DNA of 64,000 nucleotides from Amycolatopsis sulphurea (GTDB taxonomy: Bacteria; Actinomycetota; Actinomycetes; Mycobacteriales; Pseudonocardiaceae). Of the stretch, positions 10,224 through 52,402 are shown piece by piece. The DNA is taken from contig NZ_PDJK01000002.1 in assembly GCF_002564045.1 (NCBI RefSeq), positions 3,534,001-3,598,000 on the forward strand. Reading direction: 5' to 3'. The translations under genes and the position numbers were made by a program. The notes under the pieces were generated by a model, which worked only from the letters and a program-made list of their open reading frames with translations, was not told the DNA's origin and did no database searches. Position 1 is the first letter of the stretch. Every line of letters starts with the position of its first letter.

Positions 10224-10344
10224 CCTGCGTGAACCCGCCCTCGCGCGGCGGTCTGCAGACTGCCCGGGCAGGGCTGGAGAGAAAACGTGAAGTCCGGCCC
10301 GTCAGACTTTGACCCGTCAACGTGAAGTGGCGGTAGGAGTTGTC

Positions 10345-19651: not shown

Positions 19652-19698
19652 GTGAAGGGGCCCTTCACGGACTCTGAGTCCGTGAAGGGCCCCTTCAC
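19652..19698. repeat. Nested-palindrome core (copy 2)
   Basis: GTGAAGGGGCCCTTCAC, GGACTCTGAGTCC, GTGAAGGGCCCCTTCAC: three adjoining dyads that together form one 47-bp perfect inverted repeat about the central T of CTCTGAG. This copy lacks the outer terminal repeats and lies in a gene-free region. Confidence 0.95.
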
Positions 19699-36034: not shown

Positions 36035-36086
36035 CCATACTCGGTGACCCGAGGTCATCATGGACAACCTGTGCAGGAGACGACCG

Positions 36087-36554
36087 ATGCTGGACTCGCT
36101 GGACGCCCGGCTGTTGCTGCTGCTGACCGACTCGCCGCGGCTGGGCGTACTCGAATGCGCACGGCGGCTCGGCGTGGCGCGTGGCACCGTGCAGGCGCGG
36201 CTGGACCGCCTCGCCGAACGCGGGGTGCTCGGCGGGTTTCCCCCGGAACTGGACCTCGCCGCGATGGGCTACGGGCTCACCGCGTTCGCCGTACTGGAGA
36301 TCGCCCAGGGCAAACGCGGCGGCGTCGCCGAGGCCCTCGCCGCGATCGACGAGGTCTGCGAAGTCCACGCCACCACCGGCCAAGGCGATCTGTTCGTCCG
36401 CCTGGTCGCCCGCGACAACGACGACCTGCAACGCGTGATCGACGAGGTGGTCGGCGTCCCCGACGTGCTCCGCACCTCGACTTCGATCGCCTTGTCCACG
36501 CCGGTTCCGCCGCGGGTACGGCCGCTGCTGGAGCGGGCGGCGAGGCCGGACTAG
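36087..36554 (+). CDS. Lrp/AsnC-family regulator
   Basis: 155 residues from the ATG at 36087, which follows AGGAGACG at a good distance; an ATG at 36060 would add nine residues. The winged helix (LDARLLLLLTDSPRLGVLEC, then ARRLGVARGTVQARLDRLAE) is followed by an RAM ligand-binding domain (LTAFAVLEIAQGKRGGVAEA, and TGQGDLFVRLVARDNDDLQR). Divergent from hppD, so a tyrosine- or hydroxyphenylpyruvate-responsive control of that gene is likely. A palindromic element follows the stop by 21 bp. Confidence 0.9.
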   Translation: MLDSLDARLLLLLTDSPRLGVLECARRLGVARGTVQARLDRLAERGVLGGFPPELDLAAMGYGLTAFAVLEIAQGKRGGVAEALAAIDEVCEVHATTGQGDLFVRLVARDNDDLQRVIDEVVGVPDVLRTSTSIALSTPVPPRVRPLLERAARPD

Positions 36555-36575
36555 ATTCGGGCGGGTGGGGGCGGG

Positions 36576-36727
36576 GTGTCGGCAAAGTCGGTGTGAGGGG
36601 CCCTGCGCCGCCTCGGAGGTCCGTGAAGGGGCCCTTCACGGACTCTGAGTCTGTGAAGGGCCCCTTCACAGACCCGGGACAGGTCTGGCGCACGCCACGA
36701 GGTGGTCGCGCGTCTCGAACGCCTCCG
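36576..36727 (+). mobile_element. Nested-palindrome element (copy 6), right part lost
   Basis: Starts GTGTCGGCAAAGTCGG with the sequence GAGGGGCCCTGCGCCGCC, as in the right end of copy 4 read in reverse. It carries the core at 36623-36669 and continues GACCCGGGACAGGTCTGGCG, CACGCCACGAGGTGGTCGCG, matching the interior of copy 4 in reverse. Similarity fades after about 36727 and no right terminal repeat is found, so it is truncated. Confidence 0.65.
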
Positions 36728-37022
36728 CGACCTGAGGGAGGGTCTGCGCGAACTCGTTGCCGCGCACGAACTCATGGCGAAACGTAAACTCGATGATCCC
36801 CATCGTTAGCCGTTACGTCAGTTCCCGGTACGGTAGCCGACATTCGATGTCCACCGCTCGTGGATAATCTCTGAATTACCCTCGTCGAACCGGCGAGGGT
36901 AAAATCGGTCACTCGGATCTCGAGCGAAGTTCGGACTTTGTTTCCGAATTCGGTGAAAGTGACCTGCGTGCGCTGACGATGCCGACCGCTCTGCGTCGGA
37001 TCTGGAAGGATTTTGCCTCGAT
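36728..37022. other. Upstream region of the biosynthetic cluster
   Basis: The first 80 bases could encode a charged helical peptide tail but have no start. From about 36830 the composition is clearly more AT-rich than the neighbours, and the inverted repeat annotated at 36876-36902 lies here. This is the likely promoter region of the decarboxylase gene. Confidence 0.45.
36876..36902. promoter_or_regulatory. Inverted repeat upstream of the decarboxylase gene
   Basis: TTACCCTCG, a 9-base loop, CGAGGGTAA: perfect 9-bp arms, 120 bp before the decarboxylase start. Could be an operator or an attenuator stem. No regulator gene is present in the cluster. Confidence 0.45.
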
Positions 37023-38303
37023 ATGCCCATGAGTGACGCCTTCTGTCAGCGCCTTATTCCGATACTTCCGCGAGTTGCGGAGCATTTCGGCACACCGTTC
37101 CACATCTACGACGTGCAGGGCATCCGCGACACCGCCGAGGGCTTCAACCGAGCGTTTCGCGGCCTGGACTTCCGGGAGTACTTCGCCGTCAAGGCGCAGC
37201 CGAACCCCCGGATCCTGCGTACCCTCGCAGACCACGGCTTCGGCTTCGACTGCAGTTCGATCGCCGAGCTCGTGGCCGCCCGGGAGGCCGGCGCGGTGGG
37301 TGACGACATTTCCTTCACCTCGAACAACACCAGCTCGGCGGAGCTGGTCGCCGCGCTCGCCGCGGACGCCATCATCACCGTCGACGACGAGACTGTCGTC
37401 GACAAGCTCGTGGCCATGCGGGCGCGGCCACGATCGGTCTGTTTCCGAGTGCACCCGGGGCGCTCCGCGTCGGTGCAGAACATGCACCTCGGCGGAGCCG
37501 AGTCGTCGAAATTCGGTATCCGGATCGACCGCCTGCACGGCGTGGTGGCGAAAGCGCGGCAGCTCGGCGCGAACACGTACGGGCTACACGTCATGCTGGG
37601 CTCGCACCTGAAGACACCGGACTCCTTTCTGCGCAATCTCGACCTGCTGCTCGACACCGTGCTCCGGCTGCGGGACGAGACCGGAGTGCGCATCGATTTC
37701 GTGAACCTCGGCGGCGGAATAGGAATCCCTTATCGGCTGGAGGAGCGGGAGTTCGACCTCGCCGGGCTGGCGGCCGGAGTCCGGGACCGGGTGACGACCT
37801 TCGAGCGCGACCACGCGTGGCACCTGCGGGTGCTGTTCGAATCCGGCAGGTATGTGACGGGTCCGCACGGGGTGCTGGTCACCCGCGTGCTCAACCGGAT
37901 GACCAAATGGCGCGAGATCGTGGGCGTCGACTGCGGCATGAACGGTCTGATCCGCCCGGGAATGTATCCGGACGCCTACCATCACCTGTCCGTTTTGGAC
38001 GGCGAGGGGCGCGAACTCGAGACGGTCGACGTCGTCGGCTCGATGTGTGAGAACAACGACAAACTCGCGATCCAGCGCGTCCTGCCACGCACGGCCGAGG
38101 GCGACCTGCTGCTGGTGCACGACACCGGCGCCCATGCGCTGTCGCAGACCTACACGTACGGTGGGCGGCTGCGCCCACAGGAGTTGCTGCTGCACCCGGA
38201 CGGGGACGTGGAGCGCATCCGCCGGGCCGAGACCGTCGAGGACTACTTCGCAACCCTCCGCTGCGACGCGGACCGGCTTGCGACGGCGGTGGTGCTGCGG
38301 TGA
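37023..38303 (+). CDS. LysA-like PLP decarboxylase (fold type III) of the biosynthetic cluster
   Basis: 426 residues from MPMSDAF; GGAAGGA lies 12 bases upstream and a second ATG two codons later is possible. It has the alanine-racemase-type barrel with the PLP Lys at K57 (EYFAVKAQPNP), and the C-terminal domain has GVDCGMNGLIRPGMY and VVGSMCENNDKLA with the active-site Cys. The loop that reads HIGSQI in ordinary diaminopimelate decarboxylases is HVMLGSHLKTPDSF here, so the substrate is probably not diaminopimelate. It may decarboxylate a basic amino acid or a carrier-bound or peptide intermediate of the cluster. It converges on the NRPS-type methyltransferase gene with 205 uninformative bases between. 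Confidence 0.8.
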   Translation: MPMSDAFCQRLIPILPRVAEHFGTPFHIYDVQGIRDTAEGFNRAFRGLDFREYFAVKAQPNPRILRTLADHGFGFDCSSIAELVAAREAGAVGDDISFTSNNTSSAELVAALAADAIITVDDETVVDKLVAMRARPRSVCFRVHPGRSASVQNMHLGGAESSKFGIRIDRLHGVVAKARQLGANTYGLHVMLGSHLKTPDSFLRNLDLLLDTVLRLRDETGVRIDFVNLGGGIGIPYRLEEREFDLAGLAAGVRDRVTTFERDHAWHLRVLFESGRYVTGPHGVLVTRVLNRMTKWREIVGVDCGMNGLIRPGMYPDAYHHLSVLDGEGRELETVDVVGSMCENNDKLAIQRVLPRTAEGDLLLVHDTGAHALSQTYTYGGRLRPQELLLHPDGDVERIRRAETVEDYFATLRCDADRLATAVVLR

Positions 38304-38508
38304 CCCGTCACGTCGACTGAGGCTTGCCCGTCTCTCCACGGCGCACGCCGAACAATCTGCTTGCAGTACCCGTATTTCGTGCGAGTGTCCGAAGTGGACG
38401 GCCGGCGCTGTTGATGGCGAAGAGTCGAGCGGCGGCTGGTGCCCTCCTTCCGCGACCTCGTGCTGGTCACCGGTCGTCCGCTCGACGGGCCTGTGTGACC
38501 CCGTCGCG

Positions 38509-39570
38509 TCAGCGCTCGGTGATGACGACCCCGGGGCCGGCCGAGGCCGGGACGAGCACCAGGTCGAGTGTTGCCGGGTCGTTCCGCGACCACCGCACCA
38601 CCGAACGGACGCCGGGGGCGACGGTGAGCGGGCGGTCCGGATCCGGTCCGCGGCGTGTGAGCCGGCGATTCGGGATGCCGACGATCCGCACCGGGGCGCG
38701 GAGATCCAGCCCGTCCTGGGCGTCGAGCCACGGCACCGTGGGAGCGGCGCCCGCGTCGACCACCGGGCGCTGTGGCCCGACCAGCACCACGTCGTAGCGG
38801 TAGCGCGTCAGCTCGTTGTCGGGGCCCTGTTTGCACCGGATCTGGCAATGCAGCCCGAGGCGTCTGGCGGTGGCCGCGAACCAGTCCGGTGCGACGAACA
38901 GCTCACGGTCGGTGGCCAGCACGCGCGCCGCCGCCGGGCCGAGGTCGTTCGCGTCGGCCCCGCGGGCGCGGGCCACGTCCGTCGCGAAATGTTCGCGCAG
39001 GGGTTCGCAGCGGACATCCCCCACGAGGACGGCTCCGGTGGGTCCTGCCAGCTCGGCTGCCGTCGCCACCACGGCCGTGAGGTAGTCGAGGTCGGGGAAG
39101 TACTGCGCGACGGAGTTGAGGACGACGAGGTCGGCGGGGCCGGCCCGCAGGAGTCGCGCGCGCTCGTGCGCGGCGGTCACTTCGAGATGGACCCGATCCG
39201 TGAGTTCGGGGCGATCGGCGTTCAGCCGGCGTTTCAGGATCTCGATCGCGGATGGCGAGAAGTCCGTACCTGTGTAGTGCTGCACGTGCGGGGCGACGAG
39301 GGCCAGGAGCAGCCCGCCGCCGACGCCGATCTCGACCACCCGGCGCGGGAACAGCTCCAGGATGCGTGCGACGGTGGTATCGCGCCAGCTGCGCATGTCC
39401 GCTTCGGGGATCGGCGAACCGTCGTAGGCCGAGTCCCAGCCGCGGAAATCGTCACCCAGCCGCCCCCACGGCTCGCCGTCAAGGTAGAGGGTGTCGTAGA
39501 CCTCGCGCCAGATCGCGACGTGTTCGAGTGCGGGCGCGGAGATCTCGCCCGCGCTGGCCGGGCCGGTCAC
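38509..39570 (-). CDS. Free-standing NRPS-type methyltransferase
   Basis: 353 residues from a GTG whose bases overlap the stop of the amidinotransferase gene (GTGA). The sequence follows the methyltransferase domain normally embedded in NRPS adenylation domains. Markers are AWRDTTVARI-like SWRDTTVARILELFPRRVVE, then IGVGGGLLLALVAPHVQHYT, GTDFSPSAIEILKRRL, VVLNSVAQYFPDLDYLTAV, VLVGDVRCEPLREHF, and LHCQIRCKQGPDNELTRYRY. Embedded versions N-methylate carrier-bound aminoacyl groups. Finding it as a separate protein suggests methylation in trans on the cluster synthetase, or on a free substrate. About 70 extra C-terminal residues (VRIVGIPNRRLTRRG) follow. Confidence 0.85.
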   Translation of the reverse strand: MTGPASAGEISAPALEHVAIWREVYDTLYLDGEPWGRLGDDFRGWDSAYDGSPIPEADMRSWRDTTVARILELFPRRVVEIGVGGGLLLALVAPHVQHYTGTDFSPSAIEILKRRLNADRPELTDRVHLEVTAAHERARLLRAGPADLVVLNSVAQYFPDLDYLTAVVATAAELAGPTGAVLVGDVRCEPLREHFATDVARARGADANDLGPAAARVLATDRELFVAPDWFAATARRLGLHCQIRCKQGPDNELTRYRYDVVLVGPQRPVVDAGAAPTVPWLDAQDGLDLRAPVRIVGIPNRRLTRRGPDPDRPLTVAPGVRSVVRWSRNDPATLDLVLVPASAGPGVVITER

Positions 39571-40718
39571 ACGAAGCTGCGCAGCTCGCCGCGGCGCCGC
39601 ACGTCGGCGGTGACACAGTGGAAGCACCCACCGAACCGCATGACGTTGCGGAATGGGATCGGCAGGACGTCGAACCCCCATTCGTCCAGCATGTCCGCCA
39701 AGGCCGTTTCCTGCGCCTCCACCACCACCTGCGTCTCGCTCAGCATGAGCACATTCATTCCCACGGTGGGGCTGGACATGTACAACTCGAAATCGTCCGG
39801 AACTGCCGGCTCGGGTGCCACCCGCACATCCCAGGCGTCGAGGACCGACGGCACATCCTTGACCTTGTTCCGATTCAGCAGCAGCTTCCCCGGGGCGAGT
39901 GGCACGAAGGATGCGTCGATGTGCATCGGATACGGATCGATCGTCTCGACGATGTGCACGGTGTATTCCGGGTCGAGATGCCGGGCCACCCACTCGATGC
40001 CGAGCCGGTTGGTGACGTGGCTGCGCTGGGCGAACAAGTCGGTGCCGCACCGGGTGAAATCGGCCGCGTCGAAGGTCGGCTCGACCTCGGTGGTCGCGTA
40101 GGACTGGGTGGCGAACGGCGTCTCCCGGTCGAAGCCGGCGTCGAAGGTGTCATCGTCGAGCAACGGTCGCGGTGCGGCGATCCACCGGGCGCCGCGCCGG
40201 AAGTAGCCGGTCAGCAGGCGATGGTAGGCGTCAGCCTCGAAATAGCGGCTGCGCCATGCCATCGGCGACTCGATGATCATGTCTCCGACGACGAGCAGCA
40301 GATCGCGGGGCATCGCGCTGTAGAGCCCACCGGGGCTCGACCAGCGTGGGGTGCTGAAGCTTCGGGTGTGGTCCACCGGATCCGGCCGTGTCACGACGAT
40401 CCCGCGAGCGGTGAGGAAGCCGGCGAAGGCGTCCAGCTCCGCCTCGGCCGCCTCAGCGTGCTCGCGCGGCCACGGTTGGCCCGCGGTGCGGGTGAACAGT
40501 TCGCGCGCGCTGGCCGGCACGCAGGACTCGACGGCCACGTCCCACTGCGGGACCGCTGCGCCGCGCATCGTCCCCACGATGACCTCCTCAAGCGGGTCCC
40601 ACTCGGTGTAGGTGCTGACGGGGCCTGCTGGACGGGTCGTGTCAGGACGACTCCGGTGATCGACGGTCAATTCTTTTCCCAACCTCGGTGACTGTGGCCG
40701 AGGGAAACCAATCCTCAT
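39567..40718 (-). CDS. AGAT-like arginine amidinotransferase
   Basis: 383 residues from an ATG preceded by GAGGGA; a GTG two codons earlier is possible. It matches the L-arginine:glycine amidinotransferase family closely around the triad: Asp in FDAADFTRCGTDLFAQRS, His in DPYPMHIDASFVPL, and Cys368 in GGCFHCVTADVRRRGEL. These enzymes move the amidino group from arginine to an amine acceptor through an amidino-Cys intermediate. The acceptor is not defined by sequence. The cluster also encodes a GAMT-like methyltransferase, which would act next as in creatine synthesis. Co-transcribed with the NRPS-type methyltransferase and divergent from the synthetase. Confidence 0.9.
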   Translation of the reverse strand: MRIGFPRPQSPRLGKELTVDHRSRPDTTRPAGPVSTYTEWDPLEEVIVGTMRGAAVPQWDVAVESCVPASARELFTRTAGQPWPREHAEAAEAELDAFAGFLTARGIVVTRPDPVDHTRSFSTPRWSSPGGLYSAMPRDLLLVVGDMIIESPMAWRSRYFEADAYHRLLTGYFRRGARWIAAPRPLLDDDTFDAGFDRETPFATQSYATTEVEPTFDAADFTRCGTDLFAQRSHVTNRLGIEWVARHLDPEYTVHIVETIDPYPMHIDASFVPLAPGKLLLNRNKVKDVPSVLDAWDVRVAPEPAVPDDFELYMSSPTVGMNVLMLSETQVVVEAQETALADMLDEWGFDVLPIPFRNVMRFGGCFHCVTADVRRRGELRSFV

Positions 40719-40746
40719 GAACACCGTCCCTCTATTGGGCGAACAT

Positions 40747-40776
40747 CATTTAAATGCGTGACATACAGTCCTGTAT
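40747..40776. promoter_or_regulatory. Divergent promoter elements between amidinotransferase and NRPS genes
   Basis: Two adjoining dyads, CATTTAAATG (40747-40756) and ATACAG-TC-CTGTAT (40763-40776), lie in an AT-rich patch unlike the GC-rich surroundings. They are 29-58 bp from the amidinotransferase start and 106-135 bp from the NRPS start. They could be the -10 region and an operator shared by both transcripts. Confidence 0.5.
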
Positions 40777-40881
40777 CGGCGCGAATTCTTCGGTCGTTCA
40801 TCTTGATGGCCCCGGTTGGTGACCTCGATCGTGGAGCTTGATCACTGTTGTGACAGTCCGTGAGATCGATGAAGGGCGTAA

Positions 40882-43800
40882 ATGACCGTCCACCCGACCG
40901 ACGTGATCGACCTGATCACCGCGCAGGTCGAACGCAGTCCGGACGCGGCCGCCGTCGTCGAGGGCACCCGTGAGCTGACCTACGCGGAGCTCGTGGCGGA
41001 GGTCGAACTCGTGGCCGCCGACCTCGTGGCACGCGGGGTCCGGCCACGCGATCTCGTCGCCCTCGTGCTCCCGCGCGGGATCCGTGCTGTCGTGGCCATC
41101 CTGGCGGTGCTGCGGACCGGTGCCGGATACGTCCCGGTCGAGGTCAACGGGCCGGCAGCACGCATTCACGCAGTGCTCGGCGAGGTTAATGCGCGGGTCG
41201 CCATCGTCGATGCCGGCTCCCGTGATCTTCTCGACGGTGCCGTCGGCACCCTCGATCTCGACGGCCCACTTGCCGGCGTAGGGGGATCCGCCGGTCCGGT
41301 GCCCGGCATCGGCGACGCGAACAGGGCGGAGGCCGGCGGCGCGACCGTGCTCGCCGAGCGTCCGGCACCGCCGGCGACAGTGGACCCGGACGCGCCCGCC
41401 TACGTCATCTACACCTCCGGCTCCGCCGGCCAGCCGAAGGGCGTCGTCGTGCCCCGGCGCGCGGTCGCGTTCTTCTGCGCCGCCGCCCGCGGCCCATACA
41501 CCACGACCGCCGGCGACCGCGTCCTGCAGTTCGCCTCGCTCGGATTCGACGCGAGCGTCGAAGAGATCCTGCTGCCGCTTTCGGTCGGGGCGACGGTGGT
41601 GATCCGCGACGAGGAGATGCTGAGTCGCCCGGACCTGTTCCTGCGCCGCTGCGGCGAGTGGGGAACCACTGTCCTCACTCCGCCACCCGCTTACTGGCGG
41701 GAGATACTCGGTGTGCTGGAGCGGGGCGAAGCCACCCTGCCGCCGTCGGTACGGCAGATCGTGCTCGGTGGAGAGGCGGTGTACGCCGACGCCGTGCGCC
41801 GCTGGCGCCGGACGGTTGGGCCGCATGTGCGTTTGATCAACTGCTACGGCCCGACCGAGACCACCGTCGTGGCACTGGTGGCCGATCTGACCCACTACGA
41901 CGGCGACGACCCCGTACCGATCGGCGAGCCGCTGCCCGGCGTGCTGACCGAGATCCGGCCGGTACCCGGTGAATCCGGCGACAGGCCCGAGTGCGCCACC
42001 GGCGAGCTGTGGATCGGCGGTCCCGGGGTCACCGACGGCTACCTCGGCCGGCCCGACCTGACGGAGGAGCGCTTCCGCACCGAGCCGGGGCCTGCGGACG
42101 AGCCAGTCCGCTGGTACCGGACCGGCGACGTCGTCTCCCAGGGACCGGACGGCAGTTTCGCCTACCTGCGTCGTCTTGACCGGCAGGTACAGGTCCGTGG
42201 GGTCCGCGTGGAGATCAGCGAGGTCGAGGCGGCGCTGCGGCTGGTCCCCGGGGTCGCCGACGCCGTCGTCGACGCCGTGCCTGACGCCGGCACCGTCCGG
42301 CTTGAGGCCCATCTGATCGCGGACGGCGACCTGGCCCCCAACGAGCCGGCGGTGCGTGCCGACCTGACGGGCCGGCTGCCCGCCGCGATGGTTCCGGCCC
42401 GGATCCGGTTCCACCGGCGGTTCCCCCGTACCGACCACGACAAGGTCGACCTCGTCGCGTTGCGCGGGACCCCGGACACCACCGCCCCTGAAAGCACCGC
42501 CCCGGAAAGCGCCGCCCCGGACGACGCCGACCCCGCGGCCGCGATGTCGGCGCTGTGGTCGCAGGTGCTCGATCGCCCGGCGATCGGGCCGGACGACGAC
42601 TTGTTCGCCGCCGGCGCCGATTCGCTCGCCGCCGTGCGCATCCTCACCCGCCTGCGCACCGAGCACGGGGTCGAACTCACGTTGGCCGACCTGTTCGCGG
42701 CTGGCACCCCGGCCCGCACCGCCGAGCTGGTGGCCGCGTCGGCGCGGGTCGTTCCCGCCGAGTCGCCGCGCACCGCGACGGGGACCTTCGAACTCGGTGG
42801 CCTGCAGCCCGACTACTGGCTCACCGACGTGATCGAGCCGGGCCTGCCCCGCTACCTGCTCGGTCTGCGCTACCACGTCGACCGATCCGTCGAGCCCACC
42901 GAGTTGACTGCGCTCCTTGCCGCGCTCGTGCGGCGCCACCCCGTGCTCGGAGCCCGGTTCCCCGAGCGGGACGGACGGCCGGTGATGGTGGTGGACGGCA
43001 CCGGCCGCATCCAGATCGGTGGCCCGGAGGTCGACCTGCGGGAAGGCCCGGTCGCCCGCGCGGTTCACGACCCCGCGACCGGAGTACTCACCCTGTTCGT
43101 CCATCACATCGTGTTCGACGGCTGGTCGGCCGGCGTCGTGGCTCGTGACCTGGGGTTGCTGATCGACGGCGCGACCCTGGAGCCGCCGGCCCGGGGCGTG
43201 ACCGTTCCCGCGTACGCGGATTCCACTGCCCGTACATCCGATCGGGCTTACTGGCGGCAGCGCCTCGATGGTGTCGGCCCGGCCGTCGAGGTGCCGGCCG
43301 ATCGGCCGCGCCCGCTGGAGCCTACGTTCGCCGCGCTGCGCGTCGAGCGCCGGCTCGATGCGACGACGGTCGGGCGATGGGACGCACTGGGCCGCGACCG
43401 TCGCGCCAGCCTGTTCGCCGTGGTTCTGACCGGCGTGCACGCCCTGTTGAGCAGGTGGACCGGACGGACCGATCCGGTGGTGCTCGCCCCGGTGGCCAAC
43501 CGGGGCGGCACCGGCCTGGAGGACGAGGTCGGCGCGTTGCTCAACACTCTCCCGCTGCGGGCCGACACGGGCGGCGACCCGTCCTTCGGCGAGCTGCTGG
43601 ACCGGGTGGCCGCCGACACCGTCGCCGACCTGGACCACCAGCGTCTGCCGCTGCCCGAGATCCTCGCGGTGACCGAGCGACCGGTCACCCCGGGCGCCGG
43701 CAATCCCTTCAGCTCCGTCCTCCTCACCGTGTTGAACACGCCGCACGGCTACGACGGCCCGGTCCGGTACGTGGGTGACGTCGTGCCCGCCGCGCAGACC

Positions 43801-46800
43801 GTCGACCTCGCCTTTGCCCTCGACACGACCAGCGCGGGCCACGTCCTGACGCTCACTGCGCGCAGCGAGCTGTTCGACCGCGACCGCGTCGAGGGCATTC
43901 TCGACCAGCTCACGGTTCTCCTTGACGCCGCCGTCGCCGAGCCCGGCACCCCGTTGCATCGGCTGCCGCTGCTCTCACCGGACGCACGCACCCGGCTGCT
44001 CGACGCGGTCAACGGCCGGACATCGGGGCGTGCGCCGCGGTTTCCGCTCGTCCAGCACTACCTGCAGGCGGTCGCCGCCGAGCGCCCGCACGCGCCGGCT
44101 CTGACCGTCGGCGACACCACGATCGACTACGCGCAGCTGGCGTCAAGGGCCAACCGGCTCGCGCACCACCTGCACCACAGAGCGGGTCGGCCGAGCGGCG
44201 GGCGAGACACCCCGATCGCGATCGCGCTGCCCCGTGGCGTCGACCTGTTCGTCGCCGTGTGGGGTGTCCTCACGGCGGGCCGCGCCTATGTCGCGCTCGA
44301 CCTCGATCATCCCGCGGGCAGGCTGGCCAAGGTGCTGGCCGACTCCGGTGCCGACGTCCTCGTCACCCGCGCAGATACCGCCGGTCCGGCGCTCGCGACG
44401 ACCGGGGCGGCCATCGAGACGGTCCTGCTCGATCGGGAAGCGGCGGCGATTACCGCACATCCCAGCGACCCACCTGACGTGGCTGTCACCCCCGCCGACC
44501 CCGCCTACCTGGTGTACACGTCCGGATCGACCGGGGCGCCGAAGGCGGTGGTGGTGACCCACGACAGCCTGACCCACGCCGTCGAGATGTGGATGCAGCA
44601 CTACGCCCTGGTACCGGACTGGACGTTCGCTCAGGTGGCCCCGGTGTCGTTCGATCTGTTCGTCGGCGAGACTGTGCGCGCCCACACCGCGGGAGGGCGC
44701 CTGGTGGTCGTCCCGAAGGAGACCGCGCTGGACCCACCGGTCTTCGCGGAGTTCCTGCGCCGGGAGCGGGTGGCGTGTACCGAGCTGGTACCGAGCATGC
44801 TGAACCCGTTGCTCGCCGTCTGCGGGCCGCTGCCCGACCTGCGGCTGCTCATCGGCGGCGGCGAGGCCTGGCCCGTCGAGGACTATCAGCAGGCTCACGC
44901 GCTGCTCGACGCGGGCACCCGCCTCGTCAACTCCTACGGTGTCGCCGAGGCGACCGTGGACAGCCTCTGCTTCGAGGGGCCTCTCGAAGCAGAGGCCACG
45001 CTGGTGCCGATCGGGCGGCCCTTTCCCCACCAGCGCGCCTACGTGCTCGATGCCCATGACGAGCTGGTCCCCCCGGGCGTGCCCGGGGAACTGCATCTCG
45101 GTGGCGCCGGCGTCGCGGCGGGCTACCACCGCCGCCCGGGCCTGACCCGGCAGCGGTTCGGGCCGGACCCCTTTGTCCCGGGCGGACGTCGTTACCGCAC
45201 CGGCGACCGTGCCCGCGTGCGGACCGACGGGACCGTGGAGTACCTCGGCCGGCTCGACGACCAGGTCAAGGTGCGGGGCCATCGCATCGAGCTGGGTGAG
45301 GTCGAGGCCGCGCTGCGCGCCCTTCCTGATGTCGCCGCCGCGGCTGCCACGCTTCAGGGAGCGGACCTCGTCGGCTACGTCGTGGCAGACGACGGCAGCA
45401 CCACTCTCCCGGAGCCCGACCTGCTGGCGGCACTGCAGACCCGGCTGCCCACGGGCGCGGTCCCGGCCCGTGTCGTCGTGTTGCCCCGGCTGCCGCGTAC
45501 CCACAGCGGCAAGCTCGACCGTGCCGCTCTGCCCGCGCCCGGCTCGGCAGGCCCCGCCACACCGGCGATGGCCCCCGCGACCGCGACGGAGCAACGGATC
45601 GCCGGGGTCTGGGCCGAGTTGCTCGGCATCGAGGTCGCCGTGGTGACCGCCGACAGCACGTTCACCGGGCTGGGCGGCGACTCCTTCGCGACGGTGCGCA
45701 TGGCCCGCGCCGTGTCTTCCTCCCTGCGCCTCGTCGACGTGTTCCGTCGCCCCTCGTTGCGACAGCTGGCCCGCCACGTCGACAACCTCGAGACCGACCA
45801 CCCTGCGGCACCTGACCGGTTGCCCGCCGCCGTCCCGGCCGATGGCGCGGAGCGCACGGTGACCGACGCCGCCGACCGGTTGCTGCAGCCGATCGGCACC
45901 GGACGGGCCGACCCGGCCCTCGGCGGAGCCACGATCGTCGGGTTCCCCTACGCGGGCGGGACCTCGATGACGTTCGGTCCGCTGGCCGAGGCGCTGCCGG
46001 CCGGCTGGGCACTGCTCGCCGTCGAGCTGCCGGGCCACGACCAGGCCCGGGACGAACCGCTCGCCGGCCTCCACGAGATCGCCGGACGAGTCGTCGAGGA
46101 GCTCCTGGCCGTCGAGGGACCGATCCTGCTCTACGGACAATGCGTCGGGACCGCGCTGGCCCTTGAGGTCGCGCGCCGCGTGACCGGCGGCCCGATCGAT
46201 CTGATCGGCGTCGGCCTGGGTGCGCAGTTCCCGATCGCCAGGCTCCCCGGCCGGTTCTTCGATCGAGTGCGCCGCCTTTTGCCCACGGACGGCTTGGTCG
46301 GCAACCGCGCCTACCTGGACTACCTGCGGGCGCGTGGCGGTTTCGCCGACGTCGAGGAGGGGCAGGACGCGGACTTCGTCCTGCGCAACGTCCGCCATGA
46401 CTCCCGGGAGGCCGAGGAGTACTTCACCGCGGAGACCGGCGACGTGGCCGCCCCGGCGCTCGCGGTTCCGGTGCTCAGCGTGGTCGGCCAGCGCGACCGG
46501 GTCACCGAGCTCTACGACGAACGCCACCGGGAGTGGGCGGCGTACTCCTCTCACGTCGAGCTCGCGGTGATCGAGCGGGGCGGACACTTCTTCGTCAAGC
46601 ACCAGGCCGCCGAACTGGCCGACGTCCTCGTCGACGCTGCGAACCGCTGGCGCGAGAGCCCGTCGGATCCCGGCCTGGCCGATCCTGCCCCGGCGAACAT
46701 GGATGTGCGTCCGGGGCTGCGCCGGTTCGCGGTGGTCGCGGCGGGCCAGACCGTGTCCGCCGTCGGCAGTGGCATCGCCTCGCTCGTCATCGCCGTATGG

Positions 46801-48054
46801 GCGCTCGGGGCGACGAATGATCTGACGCTGTTCGGTTTGCTCAGCGCAGTCGGCATGCTGCCCGGTGTGCTGGTGACGCCGATTGCGGGCGCCGTGGCCG
46901 ACCGCGTCGACCGGCGACTGGTGATGATCACGTCCAACGCCGTGTCGATGGTCGCCACCGTAGGACTGGCGTTGCTCGTCACCGTCGGCGGCGGGCTGCG
47001 GATCCCGTTCGCCGTGGTCGCGCTCTGCCTGACCTCCGTGGCGGGAGCGTTCCAACGGCCCGCCTACCTCGCCGCCGTCCCCCAGCTCGTCCCCAAGCGT
47101 TACTTGGGGCACGCCGCGGGCGTCGGCCAGATCGCGGTGAACATCAGCCAGGTCGCGGGGCCGCTACTCGGAATCGGGCTCCTCGTCGCGCTCGGGATCG
47201 GCGGAGTCCTGCTGCTGGAGGCGGCGGGCTTCGCGATCGGACTGCTGACGCTGCTGCTGGTGCGCATTCCCGATCGGGCGTTCAAACGCCGCGAGGAGAG
47301 CCTCTGGGCCGAGATCGCCCACGGCTGGCGGTACGTCATCCGCCGGGCGCCGCTTCGCGCCGGACTGTGGTTCATGGTGGTCGACGTGGCCATCTACACG
47401 GTCGGCTTCACGGTGGTGACACCGCTGATCCTCGCCCGGCACTCACCGGTCGTGCTCGGCGTGGTGCTCGCCGTCGGCGGGGTCGGCGGTGTGCTCGGCG
47501 CGGTCGTGATGGGCCTGTGGGGCGGCACCCGGCGGCGCACGGAGGGCATGCTCGTCGCGGGCGGGGCCGGCGGGCTCGGGTTGCTGATCGTCGGGATCAC
47601 CGGCGACCCGGTGCTCGCCGCGGCAGGCATGTTCGTCCTGTTGTTCACCGAGTCGATCATCGACGGCAGCTGGATCGCGGTGCTCGGCACCAAGGTCGAC
47701 CCGCAGCTGCTCGGCCGGGTCATGGCGATCTTCACGGCCCTGCCGTTGATCACCATCCCCCTCGGGTTCCTGATCGTCCTGCCCGTGGCCGACGTCGCCG
47801 TGGTCCCGGCGCTGGCAGATCCGGCGTCGAGTCCGTGGCTGCCGGTCGCACTGTTCGGCGACGGTCCCGCGCGTGGCCTCGCGTTGCTGGTCGTGCTGAG
47901 CGGGCTGGGACTGACCGCATGGGCGGGGCGGGGCTGGCTGCAGCGTTCGTTGCGCCACGCCGAGGACGACCTCCCCGACGCCGTCCCCGGCCCGGAGATC
48001 CACGACCGCGACACCGTGGCGCAGCGGGCCGACGCCCAGCTGCGCCGCCACTGA
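40882..48054 (+). CDS. Dimodular NRPS (A-T-C-A-T-TE) fused to an MFS exporter
   Basis: 2390 residues; ATG preceded by GAAGGG. A1: residues 10-510, with A3 YTSGSAGQPKG (177) and A5 NCYGPTE (320). T1: Ser581 in AAGADSLAAVRI. C: HHIVFDG at 741-747. A2: about 1050-1555, with YTSGSTGAPK (1212) and a drifted A5, NSYGVAEAT. T2: Ser1601 in LGGDSFATVRM. TE: about 1640-1930, starting FPYAGGTSMTFGPLAEALP; the nucleophile box is GQCVG, so Cys1754 replaces the usual Ser, with Asp in GQRDRV and His in ERGGHFF. From Met1940 on, about 12 membrane spans form an EntS-like MFS exporter (AGAVADRVDRRLVMI). By-eye specificity residues are D223, A224, E227 for A1 and D1258, L1259, G1262 for A2; substrates are not assigned. 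It assembles and may export a dipeptide. Confidence 0.93.
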   Translation: MTVHPTDVIDLITAQVERSPDAAAVVEGTRELTYAELVAEVELVAADLVARGVRPRDLVALVLPRGIRAVVAILAVLRTGAGYVPVEVNGPAARIHAVLGEVNARVAIVDAGSRDLLDGAVGTLDLDGPLAGVGGSAGPVPGIGDANRAEAGGATVLAERPAPPATVDPDAPAYVIYTSGSAGQPKGVVVPRRAVAFFCAAARGPYTTTAGDRVLQFASLGFDASVEEILLPLSVGATVVIRDEEMLSRPDLFLRRCGEWGTTVLTPPPAYWREILGVLERGEATLPPSVRQIVLGGEAVYADAVRRWRRTVGPHVRLINCYGPTETTVVALVADLTHYDGDDPVPIGEPLPGVLTEIRPVPGESGDRPECATGELWIGGPGVTDGYLGRPDLTEERFRTEPGPADEPVRWYRTGDVVSQGPDGSFAYLRRLDRQVQVRGVRVEISEVEAALRLVPGVADAVVDAVPDAGTVRLEAHLIADGDLAPNEPAVRADLTGRLPAAMVPARIRFHRRFPRTDHDKVDLVALRGTPDTTAPESTAPESAAPDDADPAAAMSALWSQVLDRPAIGPDDDLFAAGADSLAAVRILTRLRTEHGVELTLADLFAAGTPARTAELVAASARVVPAESPRTATGTFELGGLQPDYWLTDVIEPGLPRYLLGLRYHVDRSVEPTELTALLAALVRRHPVLGARFPERDGRPVMVVDGTGRIQIGGPEVDLREGPVARAVHDPATGVLTLFVHHIVFDGWSAGVVARDLGLLIDGATLEPPARGVTVPAYADSTARTSDRAYWRQRLDGVGPAVEVPADRPRPLEPTFAALRVERRLDATTVGRWDALGRDRRASLFAVVLTGVHALLSRWTGRTDPVVLAPVANRGGTGLEDEVGALLNTLPLRADTGGDPSFGELLDRVAADTVADLDHQRLPLPEILAVTERPVTPGAGNPFSSVLLTVLNTPHGYDGPVRYVGDVVPAAQTVDLAFALDTTSAGHVLTLTARSELFDRDRVEGILDQLTVLLDAAVAEPGTPLHRLPLLSPDARTRLLDAVNGRTSGRAPRFPLVQHYLQAVAAERPHAPALTVGDTTIDYAQLASRANRLAHHLHHRAGRPSGGRDTPIAIALPRGVDLFVAVWGVLTAGRAYVALDLDHPAGRLAKVLADSGADVLVTRADTAGPALATTGAAIETVLLDREAAAITAHPSDPPDVAVTPADPAYLVYTSGSTGAPKAVVVTHDSLTHAVEMWMQHYALVPDWTFAQVAPVSFDLFVGETVRAHTAGGRLVVVPKETALDPPVFAEFLRRERVACTELVPSMLNPLLAVCGPLPDLRLLIGGGEAWPVEDYQQAHALLDAGTRLVNSYGVAEATVDSLCFEGPLEAEATLVPIGRPFPHQRAYVLDAHDELVPPGVPGELHLGGAGVAAGYHRRPGLTRQRFGPDPFVPGGRRYRTGDRARVRTDGTVEYLGRLDDQVKVRGHRIELGEVEAALRALPDVAAAAATLQGADLVGYVVADDGSTTLPEPDLLAALQTRLPTGAVPARVVVLPRLPRTHSGKLDRAALPAPGSAGPATPAMAPATATEQRIAGVWAELLGIEVAVVTADSTFTGLGGDSFATVRMARAVSSSLRLVDVFRRPSLRQLARHVDNLETDHPAAPDRLPAAVPADGAERTVTDAADRLLQPIGTGRADPALGGATIVGFPYAGGTSMTFGPLAEALPAGWALLAVELPGHDQARDEPLAGLHEIAGRVVEELLAVEGPILLYGQCVGTALALEVARRVTGGPIDLIGVGLGAQFPIARLPGRFFDRVRRLLPTDGLVGNRAYLDYLRARGGFADVEEGQDADFVLRNVRHDSREAEEYFTAETGDVAAPALAVPVLSVVGQRDRVTELYDERHREWAAYSSHVELAVIERGGHFFVKHQAAELADVLVDAANRWRESPSDPGLADPAPANMDVRPGLRRFAVVAAGQTVSAVGSGIASLVIAVWALGATNDLTLFGLLSAVGMLPGVLVTPIAGAVADRVDRRLVMITSNAVSMVATVGLALLVTVGGGLRIPFAVVALCLTSVAGAFQRPAYLAAVPQLVPKRYLGHAAGVGQIAVNISQVAGPLLGIGLLVALGIGGVLLLEAAGFAIGLLTLLLVRIPDRAFKRREESLWAEIAHGWRYVIRRAPLRAGLWFMVVDVAIYTVGFTVVTPLILARHSPVVLGVVLAVGGVGGVLGAVVMGLWGGTRRRTEGMLVAGGAGGLGLLIVGITGDPVLAAAGMFVLLFTESIIDGSWIAVLGTKVDPQLLGRVMAIFTALPLITIPLGFLIVLPVADVAVVPALADPASSPWLPVALFGDGPARGLALLVVLSGLGLTAWAGRGWLQRSLRHAEDDLPDAVPGPEIHDRDTVAQRADAQLRRH

Positions 48055-48079
48055 GACGACGAAAGCGAGGTCTGGGCAG

Positions 48080-49228
48080 TTGCCGGAACCGACTACGGAC
48101 AGCAGCAGCTACCGACAGGGGGGCGGCGGTGCGACACCGCCCGTTGACGGTGGGGCCGCCCTGCTCGACTGGAACGAGAGCCCACTCGGACCATCCCCGG
48201 TCGCGGTGGCCCGCGTCTGCGCGCACGCGCGGCAGCTGCACCGCTATCCGCGCGGCCTCGTCGAGGCGGTGACCGGCCGGGTCGCCGCCGACCTCGGGGT
48301 GGCTCCGGAGTGTGTCCTGCTCACCAACGGGGTCGACGAGGCCGCCGATCTCCTGATGGTGGGGGCGAGCGAGGCCTGGTCGGTGTTGCCGGGGTTCTTC
48401 GGTTATCCCGACCGGGCGCGGGCGCTGGGGGTCACACCCCGGACGATCACGCTCGACGCGGCGTGGGAGCCGCAGTGCGCACCTGAGGAGCTCACCGGTG
48501 CCGGACCTGTCTTCCTCGCTCAACCGCACAACCCGACGGGGAGCTTCTTCGACCCGGCCTGGGTCACGGAGGTGATCCGCCGGGCCGCGCTGGTGTGCCT
48601 CGACGCGACCTATGCCGAGTTCGCCGAGTCGTTCCCCGTCGACCCGGCCGCGGCCGGGCGGTCCATCGCCGAAGCGGTGCTGGCACCCGGTATCGACCGG
48701 ACGGTCGTCGCCGAGGCGATGGCGGAGGGGCGGCTGGCCGTGTTCCACAGCTTCTCCAAGAGCCATGGCCTGGCTGGGCTGCGGGTCGGAGCGCTCGTCG
48801 CCGCGCCCGAGTTGACGACGCGGCTGCGGGACCGGCAGCGGGCCTACACAGTCGACACGGTGGCTCTGCACGCACTCGACGGCTCGCTCGCCGACCTCGC
48901 GCACCGGCGGGCGCTACGTGCCCACATCCGCACGATGCGGCCCCGCTTCGCGGCCGTCCTGCGCGATTGCCCGCTGCTGTCCGACGTCCGGACCACCGAC
49001 GCGAACTACGTGCTGGCTCGCGGCGCCGATACCGCGGCCACCCGCGCTTTGGTCGCCCGCCTGGCCGCACGCGGGGTCTGGATCAGCGACGGCGACGTAC
49101 TCGGGCTGCCGGGCTGGCTGCGGGTCAGCCTCGGCGACGAGGAGGCACTGGCCCAATTCCGCTCCGCGCTCGACGCCGAGAGCGCCGAGCCGACGACGCT
49201 CACCGAACCTGGAGGAAGTATCCGATGA
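48080..49228 (+). CDS. HisC-like PLP aminotransferase
   Basis: 382 residues from a TTG with GCGAGGT eight bases upstream, 25 bp after the NRPS stop. Fold-type I class I/II aminotransferase of the histidinol-phosphate type: LDWNESPLGPSP at the start, LAQPHNPTGSFFDPAW near residue 150, LDATYAEF with the ring Asp, SFSKSHGLAGLRVGAL with the PLP Lys near residue 229, and WLRVSLGDEEAL with the carboxylate-binding Arg near the end. In this operon it is followed, with a 4-base overlap, by a 2-ketoarginine methyltransferase-like gene. The likely role is interconversion of arginine or a homologue with its 2-oxo acid before and after beta-methylation. Confidence 0.85.
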   Translation: MPEPTTDSSSYRQGGGGATPPVDGGAALLDWNESPLGPSPVAVARVCAHARQLHRYPRGLVEAVTGRVAADLGVAPECVLLTNGVDEAADLLMVGASEAWSVLPGFFGYPDRARALGVTPRTITLDAAWEPQCAPEELTGAGPVFLAQPHNPTGSFFDPAWVTEVIRRAALVCLDATYAEFAESFPVDPAAAGRSIAEAVLAPGIDRTVVAEAMAEGRLAVFHSFSKSHGLAGLRVGALVAAPELTTRLRDRQRAYTVDTVALHALDGSLADLAHRRALRAHIRTMRPRFAAVLRDCPLLSDVRTTDANYVLARGADTAATRALVARLAARGVWISDGDVLGLPGWLRVSLGDEEALAQFRSALDAESAEPTTLTEPGGSIR

Positions 49229-50340
49229 CGATGATCGGTGACCGATCCCGCGACGGCGGCCGGACCGAGGACCGCCTCGTCGCGGCCATCGAACCGCTGC
49301 GCCACCTGGCACTGGCCCACGCCGTGTACGCCCTGCTCGACACTGGTCTGGCCGACACACTGGCCGACGCACCGGGCTTGAGTCTCGACGATCTCGCCGC
49401 CCGGCACTCGTTCGCTCCCGATCGGCTGCTGGGCTACCTGCACTACCTGCGCAACGAAGGCTATGTCGTCGAGCAGGACGGTGGCTGGTCGCTCGGGGCG
49501 CCGGGCGCGGAGGCCGCCGTGTTCCGGCCCTGGTACCAGCTGCTTGTCGGCGGCTACGCGCAGACTTTCGCTGCGCTCGGGCCTACTCTCGCCGCCGATG
49601 CCGGCTGGGCCGGTCGCAACGGGGGCGAGGTGGGGGCCGGTGCCTGCGGGATGAGCATGTTCGACGCGGTCCCGCTGGCCGACCGGATTCTGGAGACGGT
49701 CACCGGGCCGGCGCGAGACACGCCCGTCACCGTGATCGACTGTGGCTGCGGCGACGGCCGGTTCCTCGCCGAGCTGGCCCGCCGCCGTCCCGGTCTGCGC
49801 GGCGTAGGTCTCGAGCCCGACCCCGCCGGCGTGGCGCTCGCCCGTGCCACCGCCGCCCAGCCGGATGTCCGCGATCGGATGCGGATCCAGCAGGGCGGTG
49901 CCCTCGACGCGCCGTCGGTCGAGCCCCCACCCGAGGGTCCGGTGGTGTATCTGGCCGCATTCGTGCTGCAAGAGGTGCTGGAGCAGGACGGCGAGGACGC
50001 CGTCGTCGAGCTGCTGGCCACCGTGACCGCGGACCGTGACGACGTGTGGTGGCTCGTCCTCGAAGTCGACCACCAGCCCGACGATCCACGGCTGCGTGAG
50101 GGCCTGGGCCGGGCGTTCTACAACCCGTACTACCTCATCCATGCCATCACCGAGCAGCGGCTGATGGATGTCGCGGCCTGGTCGGCGCTGTTCGACCGCG
50201 CCGGACTGGAGTGCGTGGTCGATGCCGATCCCGATCCCGACATCGACTCGACCGGCCTCCTGCCGGGAATGCTGCTGCGCCGCGCCCGCTCAGCCGCGTC
50301 GACGCAGTCGCCTACGGCCGACGGGAGCCGGCAGGCATGA
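49225..50340 (+). CDS. 2-ketoarginine methyltransferase-like enzyme (MrsA/ArgM type)
   Basis: 371 residues, ATG with a strong GGAGGAAG site, overlapping the aminotransferase stop. An N-terminal helical domain (VAAIEPLRHLALAHAVYALL, RLLGYLHYLRNEGYVVE) precedes a class I SAM domain (VIDCGCGDGRFLAELARRRP, VGLEPDPAGVALA). FRPWYQLLVGGYAQTF, GACGMSMFDAVPL, AFYNPYYLIHAITEQRL and the end DSTGLLPGMLLRR match, from memory, 2-ketoarginine methyltransferases, which C-methylate 5-guanidino-2-oxopentanoate at C3. With an aminotransferase this gives 3-methylarginine, as in Pseudomonas syringae MrsA/MrsB and arginomycin ArgM/ArgN. The exact substrate here is inferred. Confidence 0.75.
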   Translation: MTMIGDRSRDGGRTEDRLVAAIEPLRHLALAHAVYALLDTGLADTLADAPGLSLDDLAARHSFAPDRLLGYLHYLRNEGYVVEQDGGWSLGAPGAEAAVFRPWYQLLVGGYAQTFAALGPTLAADAGWAGRNGGEVGAGACGMSMFDAVPLADRILETVTGPARDTPVTVIDCGCGDGRFLAELARRRPGLRGVGLEPDPAGVALARATAAQPDVRDRMRIQQGGALDAPSVEPPPEGPVVYLAAFVLQEVLEQDGEDAVVELLATVTADRDDVWWLVLEVDHQPDDPRLREGLGRAFYNPYYLIHAITEQRLMDVAAWSALFDRAGLECVVDADPDPDIDSTGLLPGMLLRRARSAASTQSPTADGSRQA

Positions 50341-51188
50341 CCGACCAGGCCGAGGAGTCGATCGCCAACCGGGCCGTGCATCACGGCCCCGTCGCACTGA
50401 CCTCCTCGATCCGCTCGACGGACTTTCTGCGCAACCTCGAACCGTGGCGTCGGAGCAAGGAGATCGACCAAATCCTGCACGAGGGAGCGGTCGACCTGAA
50501 CGCCCTGCACGCCGCCGCCGAGCGCCGGCCGCCGCAGCGCGACTCGTCCTTCGACCAGTACCGCACCGACGACTGGACGAGCGCGCAGGAGAACCTCGAC
50601 GAGGACGAGCTGATCATCGCGGGGCAAGAGGTGATGCAGGCGTGGGAACGCCCGCTGATGCACCGGATGGCCGCCATCGCCACTCGCACGCACGGCGATG
50701 TACTCGAGCTGGGCTTCGGGATGGGCATCTCGGCCACCGCCATCCTTGCCGAGGGTGTACGCAGCTACACGGTCATCGAAGCGAACAGCCACGTCGCCGA
50801 AAGAGCCCGCGCCTGGGCCGCCGAGCGCCCGGACCAGACGATCACGATCGTCGAGGGACGCTGGCAGGACCGCATCGATGAGCTCGGGCAGTTCGACGGC
50901 ATCTTCTTCGACACATACCCGACCTCCGAGGAGGAGGCGCTCGCGCACAACGTCGAAGACACGTTCTACGCCGAGCACTTTCTGCCCGCCGGCGCGCGCC
51001 ACCTCCGCCCAGGCGGGGTGCTCACCTACTACACCAACGAGATCGACTCGTTGAGCCGCGAGCACCAGCGCATCGTGCTGCGCCACTTCACCAGCGTGGA
51101 GATCGGCGTCGTCGAGGGGCTCCTCCCGCCCGAGGACTGCACGTATTGGTGGGCGACCTCGATGGCGGTGGTCGCACTCGTCCGCTGA
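50337..51188 (+). CDS. GAMT-like guanidino N-methyltransferase
   Basis: 283 residues, ATG overlapping the preceding stop (ATGA). The C-terminal 200 residues match guanidinoacetate N-methyltransferase closely: QAWERPLMHRMAAIA, GDVLELGFGMGISATAI, VIEANSHVAERARAWA, IVEGRWQD, FDGIFFDTYPTSEEE with Asp192 at the catalytic-base position, LRPGGVLTYYTNEIDSLS, and LLPPEDCTYWWATSMAVVAL. The first 80 residues, including RDSSFDQYRTDDWTSAQENL, are cluster-specific. GAMT methylates the guanidino nitrogen of guanidinoacetate to make creatine. Beside an AGAT-like gene it suggests an N-methylguanidino group in the product. The last gene of the NRPS operon. Confidence 0.85.
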   Translation: MTDQAEESIANRAVHHGPVALTSSIRSTDFLRNLEPWRRSKEIDQILHEGAVDLNALHAAAERRPPQRDSSFDQYRTDDWTSAQENLDEDELIIAGQEVMQAWERPLMHRMAAIATRTHGDVLELGFGMGISATAILAEGVRSYTVIEANSHVAERARAWAAERPDQTITIVEGRWQDRIDELGQFDGIFFDTYPTSEEEALAHNVEDTFYAEHFLPAGARHLRPGGVLTYYTNEIDSLSREHQRIVLRHFTSVEIGVVEGLLPPEDCTYWWATSMAVVALVR

Positions 51189-51344
51189 TCCCGACGCCGG
51201 ATCCGTCAGGCGGGTGATCTCCAGCCGACGCGGGCTCGACGAACGCCGTGCCTGGCGGATCGACGGGGACGGCCTATGCCGGATCTGCCTGGACCAACGA
51301 CGGGCGACCGCGTTCTCCAGCGGCAGTTCAAGAACCCCGCTCAG

Positions 51345-51595
51345 GCGGAGCCTGATGACCATGCGTTGGGGCGGGTTGACCAGGAAGCTGCATCTGGGGT
51401 GTGGGCAAGGGGCAGAAGCCGTTGTCGATCGTGCTGATCGCCGGGCAGCGCAGCGACAGCCCGCAATTCGTTCCCGTCCTGACCGGGATCCGGGTGCCCG
51501 TCTGGCGCTACAACAAACTCGCCGTCCGCTACGAAGCCGCCATCCACAGCGCAGCGAATGGCGCTGACCGACTTCAACACCACAGCCCCCTAGAC
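51345..51595 (+). pseudogene. Eroded IS5-type transposase at the cluster edge
   Basis: Two joined pieces of an IS5-family DDE transposase. The central part reads MRWGGLTRKLHLGC and, one frame on, GQKPLSIVLIAGQRSDSPQF then VPVLTGIRVP. This is followed directly by the C-terminal part RYNKLAVRYEAAIHSAA. The middle, with two catalytic acidic residues, is deleted and a frameshift is present. No terminal repeats found. It marks the boundary between the cluster and conserved chromosome. Confidence 0.7.
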
Positions 51596-52402
51596 CGTCT
51601 CCTCTACGTACGCGAGGTACCGCTTCGCCGACCGCTGTACGACCGCATGGCCGTCCGTACGCACGATGGCGTCCCACCACGCCCCGTAGATGGCGTCGAA
51701 TGGGTACGGCTCAAGCAACTCCGCGGCACGGCGTACGACGCTAGGTCGTTCCGGGATCAGATTCGGGTAGCTGTACATGAACCCCACGTGCGTACGGTCC
51801 GGGACCACTTGCACGATGTCGCCGGACAGCAGGGCGCCGCGGCTGTTCTCCCCACCGGGCCAGTGCAGGACGGTTCCGCCGGCGAAGTGCACGCCCAGGT
51901 TGATCAGCCGGAGCTCGTCGGTCACGTCGAAGGTCGTGCCGGACCACAGGCGGATCGCCGGGTCCGGGCGGCCGATCCACTGGCGATCGGCCTCGTGCAG
52001 GTGGATCGGCACGTCGAAGGCGTGTGCCCAGTCGACCATGGTCGTGTAGTAGTGCGGGTGGCTGATCGCGATCCCGGTGATCCCGCCCAGCTCGGTGATC
52101 CGGGTGATCAGCTCGTCGTCGAGGTAGGCCGCGCAGTCCCAGAGGAAGTTGCCGCTGCCGGTCCGCACCAGCAGGGCGCGCTGGCCGATGGCGAAGCCGG
52201 GCTCCGAACCGACGCCGAGGAGGCCCGGACCCTGCTCCTCGATGCGGGCCCGCCGGTCACCGCTCGCGCGCAGCGTCGCGAGGTCGGTCCACTGCTGGCC
52301 GCCCGGGAGTACGTACTGCCGCTCGTCCTCGCAGATCGGGCAGGTAGTGCGTGGCGCGGGGTACTGCATGCCGCACGCCAGGCAGACGGGTTCGGTGCTC
52401 AT
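51590..52402 (-). CDS. Metallo-beta-lactamase-fold protein with N-terminal zinc ribbon and degenerate metal site
   Basis: 270 residues, ATG after GGGAGGAAG. The first 25 residues hold CLACGMQYPAPRTTCPIC, a four-Cys zinc-ribbon pattern. Then comes an MBL fold: FLWDCAAYLDDELI, the metal box ISHPHYYTTMVDWAHAF, GTVLHWPGGENSRGALLSGD, and a late FDAIYGAWWDAIV. In active MBL enzymes the box reads HxHxDH; here it reads HPHYYT, so the Asp and third His are missing and catalysis may be altered or lost. It may not belong to the NRPS cluster: it faces the other way and lies between an IS remnant and greA. Confidence 0.8.
   Translation of the reverse strand: MSTEPVCLACGMQYPAPRTTCPICEDERQYVLPGGQQWTDLATLRASGDRRARIEEQGPGLLGVGSEPGFAIGQRALLVRTGSGNFLWDCAAYLDDELITRITELGGITGIAISHPHYYTTMVDWAHAFDVPIHLHEADRQWIGRPDPAIRLWSGTTFDVTDELRLINLGVHFAGGTVLHWPGGENSRGALLSGDIVQVVPDRTHVGFMYSYPNLIPERPSVVRRAAELLEPYPFDAIYGAWWDAIVRTDGHAVVQRSAKRYLAYVEETV

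Follow-up and report, generated by a model that had tools for sequence, protein, structure and literature searches.

The subject of this analysis is an island of seven genes in a window of 64,000 nucleotides from Amycolatopsis sulphurea (the whole stretch of DNA that was analysed). The island is an orphan nonribosomal peptide synthetase (NRPS) cluster with unusually interpretable parts. It is, on balance, probable that it constitutes a pathway for a small guanidino dipeptide along the lines proposed below. The best guess for the product is a dipeptide of 3-methyl-(N-methyl)arginine and ornithine, probably cyclised and exported.

A sequence-only reading of positions 37023-51188 had proposed seven enzyme types. 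All were borne out by comparison of the genes with Pfam, NCBIfam and the Protein Data Bank (PDB), and every frame is intact (Table 1). That reading had paired a 2-ketoarginine methyltransferase-like enzyme with an aminotransferase; both are present, but the aminotransferase belongs to the HisC type and not to the beta-methylarginine aminotransferase family. The fused major facilitator superfamily (MFS) transporter and the cysteine thioesterase of the synthetase had not been mentioned. The small guanidino dipeptide that it predicted agrees with the two-module synthetase, the basic adenylation codes and the guanidine-directed enzymes, and is refined here to a ring rather than a linear molecule. 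The genes for the NRPS, the aminotransferase, the 2-ketoarginine methyltransferase-like enzyme and the GAMT-like enzyme are read as one operon, because only 26 nt separate the NRPS from the start of the aminotransferase gene and the genes that follow overlap by 4 nt (49225/49228 and 50337/50340). An overlap of the same length (39567/39570) is found between the start of the free-standing methyltransferase gene and the stop of the amidinotransferase gene.

The borders of the cluster are fixed, since its flanking genes adjoin in relatives and DNA homology breaks off and resumes at its edges. The order HPPD-AsnC-MBL-GreA-Mca (MBL, metallo-beta-lactamase) is unbroken in all six same-genus relatives, where alignment places AsnC and MBL about 8-190 nt apart, compared with 15.0 kb in the window. 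Homology to a relative ends near 36535-36545 and picks up again near 51589, and none of the seven island genes was found in the 20 kb fetched at the flank locus of each of the six. This pattern points to joint acquisition of all seven genes, which is a simpler explanation than that six relatives lost them. Because the genes fill one insertion that is absent from six relatives, and because these enzyme types co-occur or are fused elsewhere, their grouping is not due to chance. A search of the island edges for terminal repeats, as a mark of the insertion, found none. A frame at 51390-51580 resembles the tail of an IS5-type transposase, a remnant at the right edge for which Pfam gave no confirmation. 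An island that has decayed or fallen silent and yields no product is very improbable: the absence of an internal regulator and this possible, unconfirmed remnant would fit such a fate, whereas the seven intact frames, the high G+C content at third codon positions and the retained catalytic motifs argue against it.

The synthetase is encoded in a single frame of 2390 residues, with adenylation (A), thiolation (T), condensation (C) and thioesterase (TE) domains in the order A-T-C-A-T-TE, followed by the MFS transporter. Its A-domain codes were obtained by alignment, the final K being taken from the A10 motifs. The second code, DLGEIGSVDK, is identical at eight of ten positions to the ornithine code DVGEIGSIDK (PMC3992020), and the A2 pocket is fairly securely predicted to be ornithine-like. 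The first, DAETVGCVVK, agrees at seven of ten positions with the arginine consensus D-A/V-E-D-I/V/L-G-A-V/I-T/D-K from a survey that also gives the code of an enduracididine domain, DAEDVAAMIK (PMC12283262); the A1 pocket is probably arginine-like, if imperfectly so. Two adenylation domains for non-basic substrates, which the sequence-only reading had named as the outcome that would contradict it, are not what these codes predict.

The 2-ketoarginine methyltransferase-like enzyme aligns with the TIGR04543 profile from position 2 to 336 of 336 (357.7 bits, E = 5.7e-107, under the equivalog cut-off of 425). It also matches the solved 2-ketoarginine methyltransferase 8r4z at full length (6.1e-65, residues 14-354). 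The aminotransferase is best described by the HisC model (150.7 bits) and reaches 31.9 bits against TIGR04544, the beta-methylarginine aminotransferase family, where the cut-off is 350. This pair recurs, because in genome G068 an aminotransferase 40% identical to that of the island lies beside the closest 2-ketoarginine methyltransferase (45%), together with a different NRPS; comparison of A codes revealed no domain resembling A1 in that cluster. The best structural match of the GAMT-like enzyme is 1xcj (4.8e-27), in alignment with which its E104 and D192 occupy the positions of GAMT Glu45 and Asp134. In GAMT, these two residues hold the guanidine.

All three kinds of enzyme adjoin on a plasmid of Streptomyces NBC_00467 (L035:14836-28462), beside cytosylglucuronate genes; this locus is an arginomycin-type cluster with a cytosylglucuronate synthase. 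Its 2-ketoarginine methyltransferase and beta-methylarginine aminotransferase both score above their family cut-offs, and its BlsL/GAMT-type methyltransferase is 34% identical to the GAMT-like enzyme of the island. Since the three adjoin in an arginomycin-type cluster, the trio represents a known way to C- and N-methylated arginine. BlsL is a demonstrated guanidine N-methyltransferase that acts on the delta nitrogen of beta-arginine and requires an acylated substrate (PMC5572114); for this reason, the GAMT-like enzyme may act after peptide formation. A near copy of the plasmid cluster is present in another genome (G738), with a trio 82-87% identical. GAMT-like genes 46-57% identical to that of the island also lie outside guanidino clusters in Frankia, Pseudofrankia and congeners (L018, L019, L020 near 9797-10610; L021-L023), two of them beside methylmalonyl-CoA mutase-type genes.

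The remaining enzymes of the island are less readily placed. The amidinotransferase retains the Asp, His and Cys catalytic motifs of AGAT, HsvA and SxtG (DAADF, PMHID and GGCFHC) and aligns with them nearly at full length (HsvA 2.8e-110, human AGAT 1.5e-101, SxtG 1.5e-101), but groups, with modest support (0.83), with the amidinotransferases of clusters in G064 and Streptomyces NBC_01423. These clusters also hold 2-ketoarginine methyltransferase, LysA-like and DapF-like genes, and are a second cluster type in which the first two co-occur with an amidinotransferase; the LysA-like protein encoded in G064 is only 27% identical to that of the island. Clusters at L034:10631-24465 and at about 4118000-4136000 of G064:C1 (L030/L031) carry genes for a TauD-type oxygenase, a DapF-like epimerase, a cupin/JmjC-like protein, a ketoarginine methyltransferase, a LysA-like protein, an amidinotransferase, a zinc dehydrogenase, an MFS transporter and FemX-like or ATP-grasp proteins, and no known product was recognised for them. 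The LysA-like decarboxylase of the island falls just short of the TIGR01048 cut-off for diaminopimelate decarboxylase (280.4 against 297.9 bits). A housekeeping lysA function was rejected on this ground and because two further genes of the genome score above the cut-off. Its 51 PDB relatives are headed by diaminopimelate decarboxylase (DapDC), followed by BtrK and by ornithine/lysine decarboxylases. The best solved relative of the free-standing methyltransferase is an NRPS (5wmm, 1.4e-47). In G694 (L104:4386-8159), an NRPS end with TE, an MFS transporter and a methyltransferase 42.5% identical to that of the island form one frame; because this homologue is fused behind TE-MFS, the free methyltransferase appears to belong with this type of synthetase.

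These enzymes could instead form a creatine-like series, which we consider unlikely. The LysA-like enzyme would make an amine, the amidinotransferase would guanidinylate it to an agmatine-like compound, and the GAMT-like enzyme would N-methylate the latter, which would cap the peptide at release; the arginine side chain would then not be the bearer of the methylguanidine. Amidinotransferase followed by GAMT is the order of creatine synthesis, and the closest solved structure to the amidinotransferase is HsvA, which is reported to use polyamines as amidino acceptors. The LysA-like family includes ornithine/lysine decarboxylases such as DokD, and the joint occurrence of amidinotransferase, 2-ketoarginine methyltransferase and LysA-like genes in G064 and Streptomyces NBC_01423 is also in keeping with such a series. 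However, the GAMT-like gene overlaps the 2-ketoarginine methyltransferase-like gene behind the aminotransferase gene, which reproduces the trio of the arginomycin-type cluster. The LysA-like gene is set apart, and its product resembles DapDC more closely than enzymes known to make amines. Methylation of the arginine unit by the trio is the reading followed here.

The thioesterase bears on how the dipeptide might be released. Its nearest solved structure is that of ObiF1 from the obafluorin pathway (1.2e-36; the next structure scores 1.2e-13), and its motifs GQCVG, GQRD and GGHFF align with the ObiF1 triad of Cys1146, Asp1254 and His1284, with the Asp in the later-strand position. This rare triad arrangement is shared by the thioesterases of ObiF1 and SulM, both of which form four-membered rings (PMC6668435, PMC11298585). 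The resemblance suggests release by ring closure and, given a TE of the ObiF/SulM cysteine type, a ring is a more likely product than a linear dipeptide.

Judged by its sequence relatives, the synthetase is not unique to the island. The closest ones, about 46% identical from end to end, occur in congeners, as a second copy in the same genome (C2:4943713) and in Embleya NBC_00888; they share the A-T-C-A-T-TE-MFS layout and the cysteine TE, and have the codes DTEDIG(T/S)VGK and the ornithine-like DMGEIGSVDK. The TE-MFS fusion was rejected as a feature special to this cluster, as 42 of 80 genus genomes and 22 of 395 class genomes contain similar regions (the order and class samples, of 399 and 395 genomes, were drawn evenly from larger groups). 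The congener and Embleya clusters represent a conserved, apparently uncharacterised type (G000:C2:4943713-4945788, that is L101, and also L099, L102, L103 and L067), in which the NRPS is accompanied by an enolase-type enzyme, an acetyltransferase-like gene, a second NRPS and a PALP-family gene and, unlike in the island, by no guanidino enzymes. That paralogues of the same layout, with nearly the same A2 code, do without any guanidino gene would suit a scenario in which the NRPS yields a basic dipeptide or diketopiperazine of the ordinary kind, like the product of these paralogues, with tailoring enzymes that act on separate molecules and guanidino genes that were added later. This is quite unlikely in view of the gene overlaps and the insertion of all seven genes as a single block. 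The A1 domain of the island also differs from its paralogues in code and sequence (47-50% identity), as would be expected if its substrate differed.

Gene content, domain order, catalytic residues and joint insertion are established directly. The scheme that we derive from them adds predictions about the substrates, the sequence in which the enzymes act, cyclisation and the size of the ring, export, what accepts the amidino group and what the decarboxylase acts on. The HisC-like aminotransferase and the 2-ketoarginine methyltransferase-like enzyme would convert arginine, via the keto acid, to 3-methylarginine, and the GAMT-like enzyme would add a methyl group to a guanidine nitrogen, either ahead of assembly or once the dipeptide is formed. 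The A1 domain would load the (methyl)arginine and A2 the ornithine, the C domain would join both, and the free-standing methyltransferase might act on a carrier-bound unit. Release of the dipeptide would fall to the cysteine thioesterase, most likely with an internal nucleophile closing a ring, and the fused MFS domain would export the product. The amidinotransferase would transfer an amidino group from arginine to a pathway amine, with ornithine, the predicted A2 substrate, as co-product.

Several observations weigh against parts of this scheme. Unlike the arginine consensus, the A1 code has T rather than D at 278, C rather than A at 322 and V rather than T/D at 331. As the TIGR04543 score lies below the cut-off, the keto acid may differ from plain 2-ketoarginine. 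GAMT-like genes occur in actinobacteria with no adjoining guanidino pathway, and the substrate of the GAMT-like enzyme is therefore not secure. No beta-hydroxylase or sulfotransferase is found among the island genes, which makes an ObiF-like four-membered lactone unlikely as the island stands; more likely is a diketopiperazine or a ring of more than four members, formed for instance via the side-chain amine of ornithine. It is tempting to speculate further that the product belongs to a new class of cyclic dipeptides, in which a C3-methyl, N-methylguanidino arginine-ornithine core undergoes additional amidination or decarboxylation and is closed by an ObiF/SulM-type TE, fused to its own exporter, into a ring that is small or strained, but this can only be put forward as a tentative and rather doubtful possibility.

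Table 1. Positions in the window of the island, its genes and its flanks
Feature	Position	Strand	Basis or remark
AsnC regulator, left flank	36060-36554		
Inserted island, about 15.0 kb, all seven genes	36555..51589		between AsnC regulator and MBL-fold gene
LysA-like PLP (pyridoxal phosphate) decarboxylase	37023..38303	+	Pfam PF02784 and PF00278; PDB matches
Free-standing NRPS-type (M-domain) methyltransferase	38509..39570	-	5wmm match; G694 fusion
AGAT/HsvA-type amidinotransferase	39567..40718	-	catalytic motifs DAADF, PMHID, FHC; PDB matches
Dimodular NRPS A-T-C-A-T-TE with C-terminal MFS transporter	40882..48054	+	codes DAETVGCVVK, DLGEIGSVDK; TE motif GQCVG
HisC-like aminotransferase	48080..49228	+	Pfam, NCBIfam, PDB
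2-Ketoarginine (C3) methyltransferase-like	49225..50340	+	8r4z, TIGR04543
GAMT-like guanidine N-methyltransferase	50337..51188	+	1xcj; E104/D192 aligned with GAMT E45/D134
MBL-fold gene, right flank	51590-52402		

Elsewhere in the window, a transposase open reading frame (DDE_Tnp_1, DUF4096) lies at 57219-58175. A dispersed palindrome, GTGAAGGG(G/C)CCCTTCAC, is present at 19652, 21988, 23572, 30960, 36623, 59275, 61069 and 63495, its copies often paired with 30 nt between them.

Blasticidin S and arginomycin are examples of bioactive natural products that contain modified arginine units. With seven genes and two modules, the cluster is small enough to be expressed whole, and its borders are set by the empty site in six relatives. 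Because its tailoring enzymes are interpretable, the island could clarify the role of the widespread and apparently uncharacterised family of NRPS-TE-MFS fusions.

The sequence-only reading had regarded the combination of enzymes as undescribed. This holds for the whole set, for which no described pathway was found in the papers and sequence records searched, curated collections of biosynthetic gene clusters being outside that scope. The full set was also found nowhere else when the 2-ketoarginine methyltransferase was sought in the 399 order and 395 class genomes and the amidinotransferase and GAMT-like genes in the 80 genus genomes, nor through a GAMT-like search of genome contigs, nor in plasmid records. 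What is apparently new is the trio together with an amidinotransferase, a LysA-like decarboxylase, a free NRPS-type methyltransferase and an ObiF1-type release domain. In contrast, the pairing of creatine-type with beta-methylarginine-type chemistry is not new: beta-methylarginine formation and guanidine N-methylation are already known from arginomycin, and newness is confined to the whole set. Saskemycin was set aside as a cationic glycolipid for which an NRPS is not mentioned. Ketomemicin, which involves other enzymes, was set aside as well.

The closest parallel among known systems is that of arginomycin and blasticidin S, which have in common with the island the three kinds of enzyme needed for a C3- and N-methylated arginine unit. 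The cluster of Streptomyces NBC_00467 differs in that nucleoside genes adjoin, in that no NRPS, amidinotransferase or LysA-like gene is annotated, and in that the aminotransferase is of the TIGR04544 type rather than the HisC type. MrsA and MrsB, which belong to the 3-methylarginine pathway of Pseudomonas syringae, offer a second comparison: the methyltransferase of the island matches MrsA over its full length, as it does the solved structure 8r4z, but it scores under the NCBIfam equivalog cut-off and is paired with an aminotransferase of another family. With ObiF1 and SulM, the thioesterase shares the Cys nucleophile and the RifR-like position of the triad Asp. Unlike in those systems, it is fused to an MFS transporter and is not accompanied by an enzyme making a beta-hydroxy or sulfonated beta-amino substrate.

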